Source: Solirubrobacteraceae bacterium
GTDB taxonomy: Bacteria > Actinomycetota > Thermoleophilia > Solirubrobacterales > Solirubrobacteraceae
Length of the DNA stretch: 64,000 nt
Assembly: GCA_024711025.1 (NCBI GenBank)
Contig: JANJTP010000069.1
Coordinates: forward strand, 1-64,000
Direction of reading: 5' to 3'
Shown in pieces: positions 16,417-19,618 of the stretch. The notes below the pieces were generated by a model that saw nothing but the letters and a program-made list of their open reading frames with translations, did no database searches and was not told the DNA's origin. A program made the translations under genes and the position numbers. Position 1 is the first letter of the stretch. Each line of letters begins with the position of its first letter.

Positions 16417-16836
16417 TCAGGCAGCGGTGGCGTAGGGCTCGAGAGCGGCGCGGATCGCGGCCGGGATCGGCGTCTTGCGCCAGGTCTTGGCGTCGACGAA
16501 GACATGGCGAAGCTCGCCCTCGACGAGCAGCTCGCCGGCGCGCAGCGCTCGCAGCGTCGTCGTCATCGCGGTGTTGCCGAGCCGTTCGACGCGTGCCTCC
16601 AGCGTGAGCCGCTCGTCGAAGCGGGCCGGGGCACGGAAGCGAACCGTCGCCTCGCCGACGACGAAGTCGACGCGGTGCGTGTCCGGCAGGTCGCGATACG
16701 CGTTCTCCCCGAGCGCATCACGCAGCAGCTCGACCATCGTCATGTCGAAGTACGCGAGCCAGTGGGCGTTGAAGACGATGCCCTGCGGGTCGCACTCGTG
16801 GTAGCGCACGCGGAACGACCATGTGAAGGGGGCCAT
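16417..16836 (-). CDS. YbgC-like acyl-CoA thioesterase (hotdog fold)
   Basis: A 139-residue single hotdog-domain protein. RYHECDPQGIVFNAHWLAYFD near the N-terminus contains the catalytic Asp of 4HBT/YbgC enzymes, followed by the typical long helix. The family hydrolyses acyl-CoA thioesters, and substrate range cannot be read from the sequence. It precedes uvrC on the same strand by about 80 bp and may be cotranscribed. Confidence 0.88.
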   Translation of the reverse strand: MAPFTWSFRVRYHECDPQGIVFNAHWLAYFDMTMVELLRDALGENAYRDLPDTHRVDFVVGEATVRFRAPARFDERLTLEARVERLGNTAMTTTLRALRAGELLVEGELRHVFVDAKTWRKTPIPAAIRAALEPYATAA

Positions 16837-16873: not shown

Positions 16874-18196
16874 TCATCGCACGAGCCTCACAGGCGGTCC
16901 CGTGCCGACGAGCCCGCCGACGCCGCGCGCGAGGGCGATGACGCGCTGGACGTAGGCCTGTGTCTCGGCAAGCGGCGGCACGCACCAGCACGCCGCCACC
17001 CGGCCCGGCCCGGCGTTGTACGCGGCAAGCGCGAGGGGCACGGAGCCGAAGCGCCTCAGGAGCGCGCTCATCATGCGCGCCTGCGCGTCGATCGCGGCCT
17101 CGGGATCGAACGGATCGCGCAGGCCGTACGCACGCGCCGTGGCGGGCATGAACTGTGCGATCCCCCGCGCGCCGGCCGCGGAGACCGCGCCGGGGTCGAA
17201 GCCCGACTCCTGCTGCAGCTGCGCCGCGAGCAGCGCGGCGCCGACGCTCCAGCGGATCGCGGCGCGACGGATCGGCTCGGCATAGCGAGCCGGCACGAAC
17301 GCGGGCACAGCGGCGTCCGACGGCTGCGGCCCGAAGCCGACCGAGCGTGTGCCGGCCGAGCCGCCCAGGCCCAGATGCCACGGCTCCCACGAGTAGCGAC
17401 GGACGAAGCCGAAGCGACCGGCGTTGACCGCAAGCCAGCCGTAAGCCGAGGGCGGCCCGAGGTCGAGCTCGGTGCCGAGCCGGTGGAGCGAGCGCCCGGG
17501 CGGCGCGACCCAGCGTGGATCGGGGCGGGCGGCGAACAGCCTCCCCTGCTCGGCGTCGGTGCGAAAGGCGCTGACCACGACGAGCGCGTGGCCGGCTCGG
17601 CGTGCGGCCGCCGCGAGTCGATCGAACGCGAGCGCGACGTCGGGGCGCATCGGCTTGCCCTGGCGCTCGGCGAACGGCCCCGGGTACTCGCCGTCGCCGA
17701 TCGGCATCGCCAGCGGCGCGATCTGCGCCTGCGCGTTGGCGCGCCCGCGCAGCCATCGCCCGCCCGGAACGGGGATCGGGTCGCTGACCGTGACCGTCAC
17801 CCGATCGGGAAGCTCGCCGCCCGAGAGCCGTACGACGACGCGTTGCGCGCCGTTGCGCAGCGCGGCCCGCCGCGCGACGCTCCGCGCCAGATCGAGGTAG
17901 TCCGCGGGCGCGATGTGGCGAGGCGAGCGAGGGGTCTCGAGCGCTCGCGGGCGCGCGTCGAGCAGCGCCTTCGCGCCGGCCAGGGCGGCGAGGTCGGCCG
18001 CCCGCTGACGGTTGGAGTGGGCGCCGAGCGCCGCGGCCAGCAGTGCCAGTGCGATGGCTCCGGCGAGAATCACGAGCGCTCCGCCGAGCAGCGCGACGAG
18101 CGCCTGGCCGCTCTCGGCGTCTCGGCGACGTATGGAGCCCGACCCGTGGGGAGCTTGCGCCCGGACGCAACCGCCGCGACCGAAGCGACGGCGCAT
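16874..18196 (-). CDS. TadG-like anchor fused to VanY carboxypeptidase and lytic transglycosylase
   Basis: A 440-residue, three-part envelope protein. Residues about 26-75 are a TadE/TadG-like N-terminus (DAESGQALVALLGGALVIL, one membrane helix, then SNRQRAADLAALAGAKAL). Residues about 165-280 are a D-Ala-D-Ala carboxypeptidase of the VanY/M15 type, with zinc ligands His238 and Asp245 (SLHRLGTELDL) and His274 with Glu271 (EPWHLG). Residues about 305-420 are an SLT lytic transglycosylase with catalytic Glu330 (QQESGF), GIAQFMPATA and AYNAGPGRV. No ATG/GTG lies close before the TadG-like part, so the likely start is an ATG at 18196 inside a 63-bp tandem repeat (a second one 63 bp upstream is equally possible). 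Probably clears peptidoglycan for the pseudopilin apparatus encoded upstream (inference). Confidence 0.85.
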   Translation of the reverse strand: MRRRFGRGGCVRAQAPHGSGSIRRRDAESGQALVALLGGALVILAGAIALALLAAALGAHSNRQRAADLAALAGAKALLDARPRALETPRSPRHIAPADYLDLARSVARRAALRNGAQRVVVRLSGGELPDRVTVTVSDPIPVPGGRWLRGRANAQAQIAPLAMPIGDGEYPGPFAERQGKPMRPDVALAFDRLAAAARRAGHALVVVSAFRTDAEQGRLFAARPDPRWVAPPGRSLHRLGTELDLGPPSAYGWLAVNAGRFGFVRRYSWEPWHLGLGGSAGTRSVGFGPQPSDAAVPAFVPARYAEPIRRAAIRWSVGAALLAAQLQQESGFDPGAVSAAGARGIAQFMPATARAYGLRDPFDPEAAIDAQARMMSALLRRFGSVPLALAAYNAGPGRVAACWCVPPLAETQAYVQRVIALARGVGGLVGTGPPVRLVR

Positions 18197-18310
18197 GCAG
18201 AGGCGACCGGCGCGACCGCAAACCCGGACGCAACCGCCGCGACCGAAGCGACGGCGCATGCAGAAGCGACCGCCGCGACCGCAGACCCAGAAGCGACCGC
18301 CGCGACCGCA
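18161..18310. repeat. 63-bp tandem repeat, two copies plus a partial third
   Basis: Unit 1 is 18161-18223 and unit 2 is 18224-18286, nearly identical; a partial third follows to about 18310. Each full unit carries a CAT, an ATG for the minus-strand TadG-VanY-SLT gene, so copy number would change which start is used or the length of a basic Arg/Gly/Cys-rich N-terminus. Read on the plus strand the repeat gives an Ala/Thr/Glu-rich peptide, but that frame is antisense to the real gene. Confidence 0.85.
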
Positions 18311-18345: not shown

Positions 18346-18906
18346 TCACGGCCTGCTCAGGACGCCGTCGAGTCGGCGGCCGAGCTCGCCGGGAATGCCG
18401 GCCCCCGCACGGGCGAGCAGCGATCCGGCGGGGCCCGGCACCGCGATCGCGCTCGCCCGCAGTCCGCGCTCGCGCAGGCCGTCGAGCGCAAGCTCGACCA
18501 TGAGATCGCTCTCGTCGCCGGCCACGAGCACGTCCGTCGACGAGCCGATCAGCGGCTCGATGGCCGCTGCGCGCGGGGCCAGCACGACGAGCACGGCGGG
18601 ACTTCCCGCCGCCCCCGCGACGGCGGCCGAGCGCCCGGCGTCCCGGGCGCCGGCCGCGCTCGGGGGCAGTGCGAGCCACGCCAGCCGCCCGCGCGCGAGC
18701 GCCGGCATCTCGTGGGCGGCGAGCCTGGCCGCCAGCCCGCGCGCCGCGACGGCGCCCGGAATCGGCAGGACGCCGGCTCGCGTCGGCGTGCCCCAGCAGG
18801 CGACCAGCGCGGCGTGCCCGCCGACCGCGCGCGCGAGAGCCAGCCCGGCCGCTGCGCCGAGGGTCTGCGCCGCTCTCGCCTCGCCGAGGACGGTGAGCAC
18901 GCTCAC
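18346..18906 (-). CDS. Unknown protein of the pseudopilin cluster, ParA-like outline
   Basis: A 186-residue protein starting at a GTG (18906) that overlaps the previous stop as GTGA. The N-terminus (VSVLTVLGEARAAQTLGAAA) and the later AVLVVLAPR and STDVLVAGDESDL stretches recall the outline of ParA/MinD/TadZ-type ATPases, but the Walker A Lys/Thr are absent. It could be a degenerate TadZ-like partner or an unrelated protein. Its conserved place between TadE-like genes and the TadG-hydrolase fusion points to the same apparatus. Confidence 0.55.
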   Translation of the reverse strand: MSVLTVLGEARAAQTLGAAAGLALARAVGGHAALVACWGTPTRAGVLPIPGAVAARGLAARLAAHEMPALARGRLAWLALPPSAAGARDAGRSAAVAGAAGSPAVLVVLAPRAAAIEPLIGSSTDVLVAGDESDLMVELALDGLRERGLRASAIAVPGPAGSLLARAGAGIPGELGRRLDGVLSRP

Positions 18907-19232
18907 GCCTGCGGCCCCGCATCGGCGCGCGATCGGGCGGCCAGCCGCCCGGCGATGCCCGGCAGCACGGCCGGCGGCCGCAGCGTGACCAGCACGACAC
19001 GCCCCCGCACCCTCACGTCGAGGCGCGTGCGCGACCAGCCCGGCACGGCGGCGCGCGCCGCGCGAGCGGGGTCGTCGTCCTGGAGGATCGCGGCGGCGCC
19101 GGCGGCGGCTGCGTGCGCGGCCAGCTCGCGGCACAGTCCAGCGGCCAGGAGCTGACCGCAGGCGAGCGCCACGGCGAGCAGCAGCGGCAGGCCGGCGATC
19201 GCCTCCAGAGCGGCCTGACCCCGCTCGCTCAT
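18903..19232 (-). CDS. TadE-like pseudopilin (second)
   Basis: A 109-residue small membrane protein. MSERGQAALEAIAGLPLLL is the classic TadE/TadF N-terminus: a short polar leader, then a hydrophobic helix with a conserved Glu near its beginning. A small periplasmic beta-rich domain ends in RADAGPQA. It overlaps the upstream TadE-like gene as ATGA and the downstream gene as GTGA, so the genes form one translational unit. Confidence 0.8.
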   Translation of the reverse strand: MSERGQAALEAIAGLPLLLAVALACGQLLAAGLCRELAAHAAAAGAAAILQDDDPARAARAAVPGWSRTRLDVRVRGRVVLVTLRPPAVLPGIAGRLAARSRADAGPQA

Positions 19233-19618
19233 CGGCCTGCCTCCGGCGTCACCGGCTCCACGCCAGTCGGAACGCCCGCGCGCGCCGTCACCCACCCGAT
19301 CGAGCGCGGACCGGAGAGCACGCCCGGGATCGCGACGCGCACGACGACCTGGACGCCGTCGACGACCCGCACGTCCAGACCCCGGGCGAAGCGCCCGGGC
19401 AGCATTCGGCGTGCCGCCGTACGCGCGTCGGAGCCGACTAGCTGCGCGCGAGCGGCCGCACGCGCCGCGCCGCCCGCAAGCCACCACGCCTCGCCGGCCA
19501 GCACCCCCTGCCAGCCGGCGAGCACGAGCGCCGCGAGCAGCGGCAACAGCGCCACCAGCTCGACGCTCGCCTGCCCGCGCTCGGTGCCCGATCCGCGTCT
19601 TCTCCGAGCCGAAAGCAC
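19229..19618 (-). CDS. TadE-like pseudopilin (first)
   Basis: A 129-residue protein starting at GTG 19618. After a basic leader comes GTERGQASVELVALLPLLAALVLAG, a clear TadE signature with Glu at the fifth position of the helix, followed by a small extracellular domain. It heads the pseudopilin group. The genes for the Tad ATPase, TadB/TadC and the major pilin are not in this window. The divergent FAD oxidase begins about 107 bp away, so the promoter must be in that short gap; I see no clear -35/-10. Confidence 0.8.
   Translation of the reverse strand: MLSARRRRGSGTERGQASVELVALLPLLAALVLAGWQGVLAGEAWWLAGGAARAAARAQLVGSDARTAARRMLPGRFARGLDVRVVDGVQVVVRVAIPGVLSGPRSIGWVTARAGVPTGVEPVTPEAGR

Follow-up and report, generated by a model that had tools for sequence, protein, structure and literature searches.

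How does a pilus machine of the Tad type get through the cell wall? The question is raised by a gene in a stretch of 64,000 nucleotides from a Solirubrobacteraceae bacterium of the class Thermoleophilia (assembly GCA_024711025.1, contig JANJTP010000069.1, positions 1 to 64,000), hereafter the window. The gene, at positions 16874-18196 of the minus strand (as are all other genes and domains of the window given below), encodes a modular TadG-like minor pilin of 440 residues in which a pilin module is followed by a VanY and an SLT domain. A sequence-only reading of the window had described a TadG-like anchor fused to two peptidoglycan hydrolases, perhaps a dedicated wall-opening enzyme for a Tad-like apparatus. 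The answer that we hold to be somewhat probable sees the fused protein as a modular minor pilin of the TadG/CpaL type which cuts the cell's own wall where a Tad machine without Flp crosses it.

An important first point is that the parts belong to a single chain. The frame, strand and stop codon of the open reading frame were confirmed, and in all full-length family members (52/52) the frame runs from the pilin part into VanY without a stop or break. Furthermore, in several relatives of the same genus a stop precedes residue 25 by only 11 codons, which places the pilin part within the fused gene, its N-terminus just ahead of the first helix. A separate gene or a frameshift between pilin and VanY was therefore rejected, based on the 52-member alignment and the upstream stops, and with it the possibility, raised in the sequence-only reading itself, that the TadG-like part is a separate gene or an annotation artefact. 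Also rejected as coding was a longer upstream frame (an open reading frame of 708 residues), as the coding signal ends near residue 25 in most relatives. Less certain is the start codon, as a 63-bp tandem repeat (18160-18308; 2.4 copies, 93% matches) covers both the assigned ATG (18196) and the upstream spacer; residues 1-20, which are not conserved, are uncertain as well. As an observation in its own right, the gene is broken in one complete genome (G006:C1:2101163-2113190), with its halves about 11 kb apart and stops inside.

Both wall-enzyme domains are recognised by Pfam above the curated cut-offs, namely a VanY/LdcB-type carboxypeptidase (PF02557; residues 183-275, positions 17372-17650; E = 1.5e-13) and an SLT lytic transglycosylase (PF01464; residues 308-401, positions 16994-17275; E = 7.8e-22). 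The former contains the zinc-ligand and catalytic-glutamate pattern SxHxxGxxxD...ExWH and the latter the catalytic glutamate in an ES motif (Glu330-Ser331) as well as AYNAG (residues 392-396). In an alignment of 52 homologues, His238, Asp245, Glu271, His274, Glu330 and Ser331 were all invariant and AYNAG nearly so. The architecture read from the letters was thus borne out by the intact frame, the Pfam matches and the family-wide profile matches described below, and the residues named at that stage (His238, Asp245, His274 and Glu330) are all present and invariant. When the model of the protein was compared with known structures, the SLT domain matched Pseudomonas Slt (Z 18.5 over 137 residues), while the VanY domain matched both Bacillus LdcB and VanYB, which is compatible with either D,D- or L,D-specificity. 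We infer that the two domains are peptidoglycan-cutting enzymes, as their sequences predict.

What, then, is the N-terminal part? An AlphaFold2 run of the full chain on the 52-sequence alignment gave a mean predicted local distance difference test score (pLDDT) of 80.6 and a predicted template modelling score (pTM) of 0.50, a value at which the mutual placement of the domains is not determined by the model. In this model the pilin module (residues 22-160, positions 17717-18133) consists of a 64-residue helix (22-85), a second helix (97-114) and five beta strands (120-159), with the pLDDT of the block mostly 87-98 from residue 31; VanY, a disordered linker (approximately residues 280-298) and SLT follow. 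As modelled, the N-terminal part takes the lollipop shape of a type IV pilin. A whole pilin module, similar to those of TadG and CpaL, is a better description of it than an anchor: the TadE/G-like nature proposed earlier stood, and the idea of an anchor was refined, as the model shows the long helix together with a five-stranded sheet. As part of a whole pilin module, the enzymes may ride on a pilus tip rather than only being anchored in the membrane.

Profile searches suggest that kinship to the known families is at the superfamily level only. With an E-value filter (E<=0.1) in place of curated cut-offs, TIGR03816 (the Rv3654c family) matched 51 of the 52 homologues (best 1.2e-8) and PF13400 'Tad' (TadE/G-like) 37 of them (best 6.3e-7); the match of the window protein to TIGR03816 was weak and below cut-off (E = 5.7e-4, 20.1 bits vs 50.95). 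The prepilin-type motif reads GQALVA in the fused protein and GQAxxL in its homologues, all of them without Glu5, whereas the neighbouring pilins retain it. Type IV filament tip complexes are capped by a subunit without Glu5 (reviewed in PMC10191384).

The neighbouring pilins are part of a tight operon, in which TadE1, TadE2 and a gene for a ParA/MinD-fold protein lie in this order upstream of the fused gene and on the same strand, joined by 4-bp ATGA and GTGA overlaps. TadE1 (129 residues, 19229-19618; motif ERGQASVE) overlaps TadE2 (109 residues, 18903-19232; processing-type motif ERGQAALE, at a position conserved in relatives) by 4 bp, and in both GQASVE and GQAALE correspond to a prepilin site of the G/XXXXE type. 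TadE1 matched PF07811 (E = 0.0013, 19.3 bits vs a cut-off of 22.9) and NF041390 (E = 0.013), both below cut-off, and the assignment as putative TadE-type minor pilins rests jointly on motif, position and weak profile match. Across relatives, at least one TadE-type pilin motif was found within 3 kb upstream of the fused gene in 39, and at least two in 33, of the 43 distinct loci with enough upstream sequence (antisense control 0/43).

The third gene of the operon (186 residues, 18346-18906) begins with a GTG that overlaps the TadE2 stop (GTGA). Its AlphaFold2 model, made with one extra residue ahead of the GTG start, is confident (pLDDT 93, pTM 0.90) and has a ParA/MinD fold, matching ParF with a Z of 11.6 over 156 of 187 residues; family profile searches returned no match for this protein. 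The window copy has lost its Walker motif, several homologues keep one of the GCGTTT type, and on the strength of its modelled fold we regard the protein as a candidate degenerate TadZ/CpaE. The gene order varies: in relatives of the same genus, TadE2 separates the ParA-fold gene from the fused gene and is apparently in the same frame as the latter, and in at least one locus of family f5 (L173) the ParA-fold gene is missing. Two side observations concern these neighbours. At some loci of family f2 and a few others (L063, L070, L090, L161, L172), one open frame runs through both the ParA-fold gene and the fused gene, which may there form a single four-part protein. Additionally, a conserved membrane-type protein of 117-122 residues without a Pfam family lies just 5' of TadE1 in many relatives (e.g., L175:4246-4605, L172:11870-12223 and about 30 other loci); it is not adjacent to TadE1 in the window.

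If this is a Tad-like system, where is its motor? Neither tadA nor linkage to tadABC was found in the window. One TadA-type ATPase gene and two platform genes (TadB, TadC) are present on another contig of the same genome (G000:C41, approximately 72.6-75.7 kb). The motor block is preceded by a CpaB/RcpC-like SAF protein (L122:4422-5081; SAF E = 1.8e-7, above cut-off; RcpC E = 8e-4, below), adjoins mraZ and the division cluster, and recurs in other genomes, with no pilin genes at these CpaB-tadA-tadB-tadC loci; we refer to their tadA as clade A. In the TadA tree, the clade found in complete Flp operons (G149, G078, G081, G092, G169 and the second G015 copy; operons were read directly in G015, G078 and G092 only) is split, with a support of 100/99, from the copies of those genomes that carry the fused gene, L215, L219 and the g25 pair having long branches and an uncertain placement. 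The tadA of genera without the fused gene was rejected as a partner by this tree, as it belongs to a different clade (B), inside Flp operons. Several genomes also encode a secreted protein next to clade-A tadA (L122:5035-6453, L166:4292-5824, L215:2522-3952), which has IPT/TSP3-like repeats in L122.

The fused gene and clade-A tadA occur together. Among genomes of the family with a completeness of 90% or more and a contamination of no more than 5%, 36 have both, 4 the fused gene only, none tadA only and 31 neither (Fisher p = 4e-16, a value inflated by relatedness), with clade A assigned by identity and genus and checked by tree only for fetched loci; one of the 31 (G050) holds a contig-edge fragment. 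In families f2-f5, a tadA match was found in 35 of the 40 genomes with the fused gene. Less complete genomes with tadA and without the fused gene do exist (e.g., G001, G007, G020, G039-G041, G115, G116, G118). Overall, the link to a Tad-like apparatus put forward in the sequence-only reading gained support from this co-occurrence, the ParA/MinD-fold gene and the TadE-type pilins in 39/43 loci, with a mixed outcome regarding linkage to tad genes: the pilins are adjacent, tadABC is not in the window, yet clade-A tadA co-occurs. A prepilin peptidase, which may serve this system, is also present in the genome (Peptidase_A24, G000:C13:32617-32931, E = 4.9e-17).

The usual major pilin is what this machine seems to lack. 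PF04964 (Flp_Fap) had no match at E<=1 in the genome of the window, and a profile built from Flp proteins of complete operons gave strong matches (E from 1e-14 to 1e-34) in G015, G018, G078, G081, G092, G120 and G199, confined to genomes with clade-B tadA, and E>=3e-4 only elsewhere. A canonical Flp pilin was not found in genomes with only the fused-gene system, where a very divergent one could be missed. The system thus appears to use TadE-type pilins only, or a very divergent major pilin.

Homologues that match over the full length, at 46-71% identity, are spread over Thermoleophilia: most genera of the family have one, and they extend through families f1-f4 of the order to f5 of the class, with related contigs titled Solirubrobacterales, Conexibacter, Patulibacter, Solirubrobacter and Miltoncostaeales. 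A search for the three-part architecture in other actinobacteria, as proposed at the outset, covered a sample of 396 actinobacterial genomes and did not find it outside the class; the matches in families f7 and f9-f12 were weak only and are taken to be SLT alone. Each genome has one highly conserved copy in a fixed chromosomal neighbourhood, without a visible immunity gene or tip diversity. In many families (L062, L067, L071, L094, L175) the locus lies 3' of pstSCAB-phoU and a response regulator and 5' of uvrC-rapZ-gap, a position that is stable class-wide, and the downstream thioesterase (4HBT; 16417-16836) is a genus-conserved neighbour that is probably outside the system. It is also worth recording that metagenome-assembled genome records titled Bifidobacterium breve (L044, L046, L048, L076, L100) carry typical Solirubrobacterales versions with 49-70% identity, so these titles look wrong.

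Taken as a mechanism, the pilin module would sit in the membrane and form a cap or tip complex with TadE1 and TadE2, and the unlinked tadA-tadB-tadC genes would drive a Tad-type machine. The enzymes would shorten stem peptides and cleave glycan strands in the wall of the cell itself at the point where the pseudopilus exits, and cutting exactly there would confine their activity to the machine. We infer the activity of the enzymes, the incorporation of the protein into the filament or its base, and the cell's own wall as the target.

Several points weigh against this picture. Motor and pilin genes are unlinked, shared ancestry confounds their co-occurrence, and no tadA was detected in four high-quality genomes with the fused gene (G028, G029, G122, G145). 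A set of genes resembling those of type IVa pili (PilB/PilT/PilC-like) at a contig end (G000:C61:1-3549, G000:C62:47090) is a possible rival partner. The TadE/G and TadE matches in the window are below curated cut-offs, and no solved pilin was among the structure matches listed for the model, a list taken up by SLT matches. Finally, the mechanism is predicted from sequence and models.

Could the protein instead be an ordinary membrane-anchored enzyme that remodels the wall during growth or division, with the TadG-like segment borrowed as an anchor and no link to a pilus? Both domains are common in wall enzymes, and the position of clade-A tadA beside mraZ and the division cluster would suit such a role. 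A simple anchor, however, has no need of a pilin sheet, nor would this reading explain why the gene shares a conserved operon with a ParA/MinD-fold gene and a pair of TadE-type pilin genes, or why it co-occurs with clade-A tadA, which makes it rather unlikely. We consider it unlikely, too, that the enzymes sit on an extended pilus tip and attack the walls of other cells, for killing, feeding or DNA release, in the manner of the Myxococcus Kil system with its exchangeable tips. TadG-type subunits have been proposed at Tad tips, which have been tied to prey killing (PMC12075869), and a peptidase together with a glycan-cutting enzyme would suit an attack. Nevertheless, the lack of a canonical Flp in genomes with only this system suggests a short filament, and a single conserved copy in a fixed neighbourhood, with no visible immunity gene or tip diversity, fits better with a housekeeping role.

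A third possibility is that VanY and SLT bind peptidoglycan without cutting it and so hold the machine in the wall. Enzyme folds can persist as binding modules, and activity is only predicted here, but the catalytic residues of both domains are invariant in 52 sequences, down to 48% identity to the window protein, which makes pure binding very improbable. The own-wall reading, in which a modular minor pilin clears the way for its machine, is the one that we carry forward.

Another intriguing question is what such a machine would be for. Our leading guess is DNA uptake. A search for ComEC was positive in each of the 21 tested genomes that carry the fused gene and negative in the four tested genomes of the same family without it (G023, G078, G081, G092); ComEC is also present in four genomes of family f9 that lack the fused-gene system. 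This pattern is a lead towards DNA uptake, with few independent losses and with the type IVa-like set as a rival. The fuller proposal, possible but quite tentative, is that Thermoleophilia have a split Tad machine without Flp for DNA uptake, in which a short TadE-type pseudopilus drives a tip-mounted peptidase and transglycosylase through the cell's own wall, as a pilin-borne wall drill.

How do these features compare with known systems? In Caulobacter, CpaL combines a pilin module with a vWA domain and is proposed to join two small minor pilins in a tip complex (PMC12607857); tip complexes of TadEFG have been described as well (PMC12075869). The fused protein resembles CpaL and TadG in its plan, with a pilin-like module at the N-terminus and, after it, a large functional domain that lies outside the membrane; it differs from CpaL in carrying VanY and SLT instead of vWA, in its occurrence in Thermoleophilia and in its partner system without a recognisable Flp. 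Functional modules on pilins are also known in Gram-positive-type bacteria, e.g., PilB and PilC of S. sanguinis (PMC8179133). The parts of that survey of modular pilins available to us list adhesion, sugar-binding and peptidase-type modules and no peptidoglycan hydrolase (PMC8179133), and, compared with the modular type IV pilins described there, the pilin here is of Tad type and the modules are predicted peptidoglycan hydrolases.

Closer in gene content are actinobacterial Tad clusters such as M. luteus tad-1 and M. tuberculosis Rv3660c-Rv3654c, which likewise have TadE-type pilins and a distal TadE/G-like gene. The M. luteus cluster has TadE/F-like pilins and no gene for a Flp-sized pilin, yet is required for natural transformation (PMC4322843). 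There, tadABC lie in the same cluster and the distal open reading frame is described just as weakly TadE/G-like with one membrane segment, whereas in Thermoleophilia the motor module is separate from the pilin module and two enzymes are attached to the TadG-like protein. As for the wall, LytF promotes export of the competence pilus across the Gram-positive wall in S. sanguinis (PMC13192262), and the fused protein would similarly let a pilus or secretion machine through peptidoglycan; LytF-type enzymes are separate proteins, while the enzymes here sit within the pilin chain. According to a 2025 paper, peptidoglycan hydrolases had not been reported in connection with Tad pili, and in the literature searched we found no description of a pilin fused to SLT or VanY, nor of this system in Thermoleophilia. 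Modular TadG-type pilins and Tad machines are thus known, and the combination of pilin, VanY and SLT is, as far as we found, undescribed.

Two wall enzymes covalently tied to a Tad-type pilin across much of a class of soil and freshwater actinobacteria are a candidate answer to the question of how a Tad machine gets through the wall. As the chain is conserved in a class with cultured members, this question could be addressed with knock-outs and point mutants. More broadly, our findings would extend modular pilins to wall-cutting modules and point to a variant of the Tad machine without the usual major pilin.
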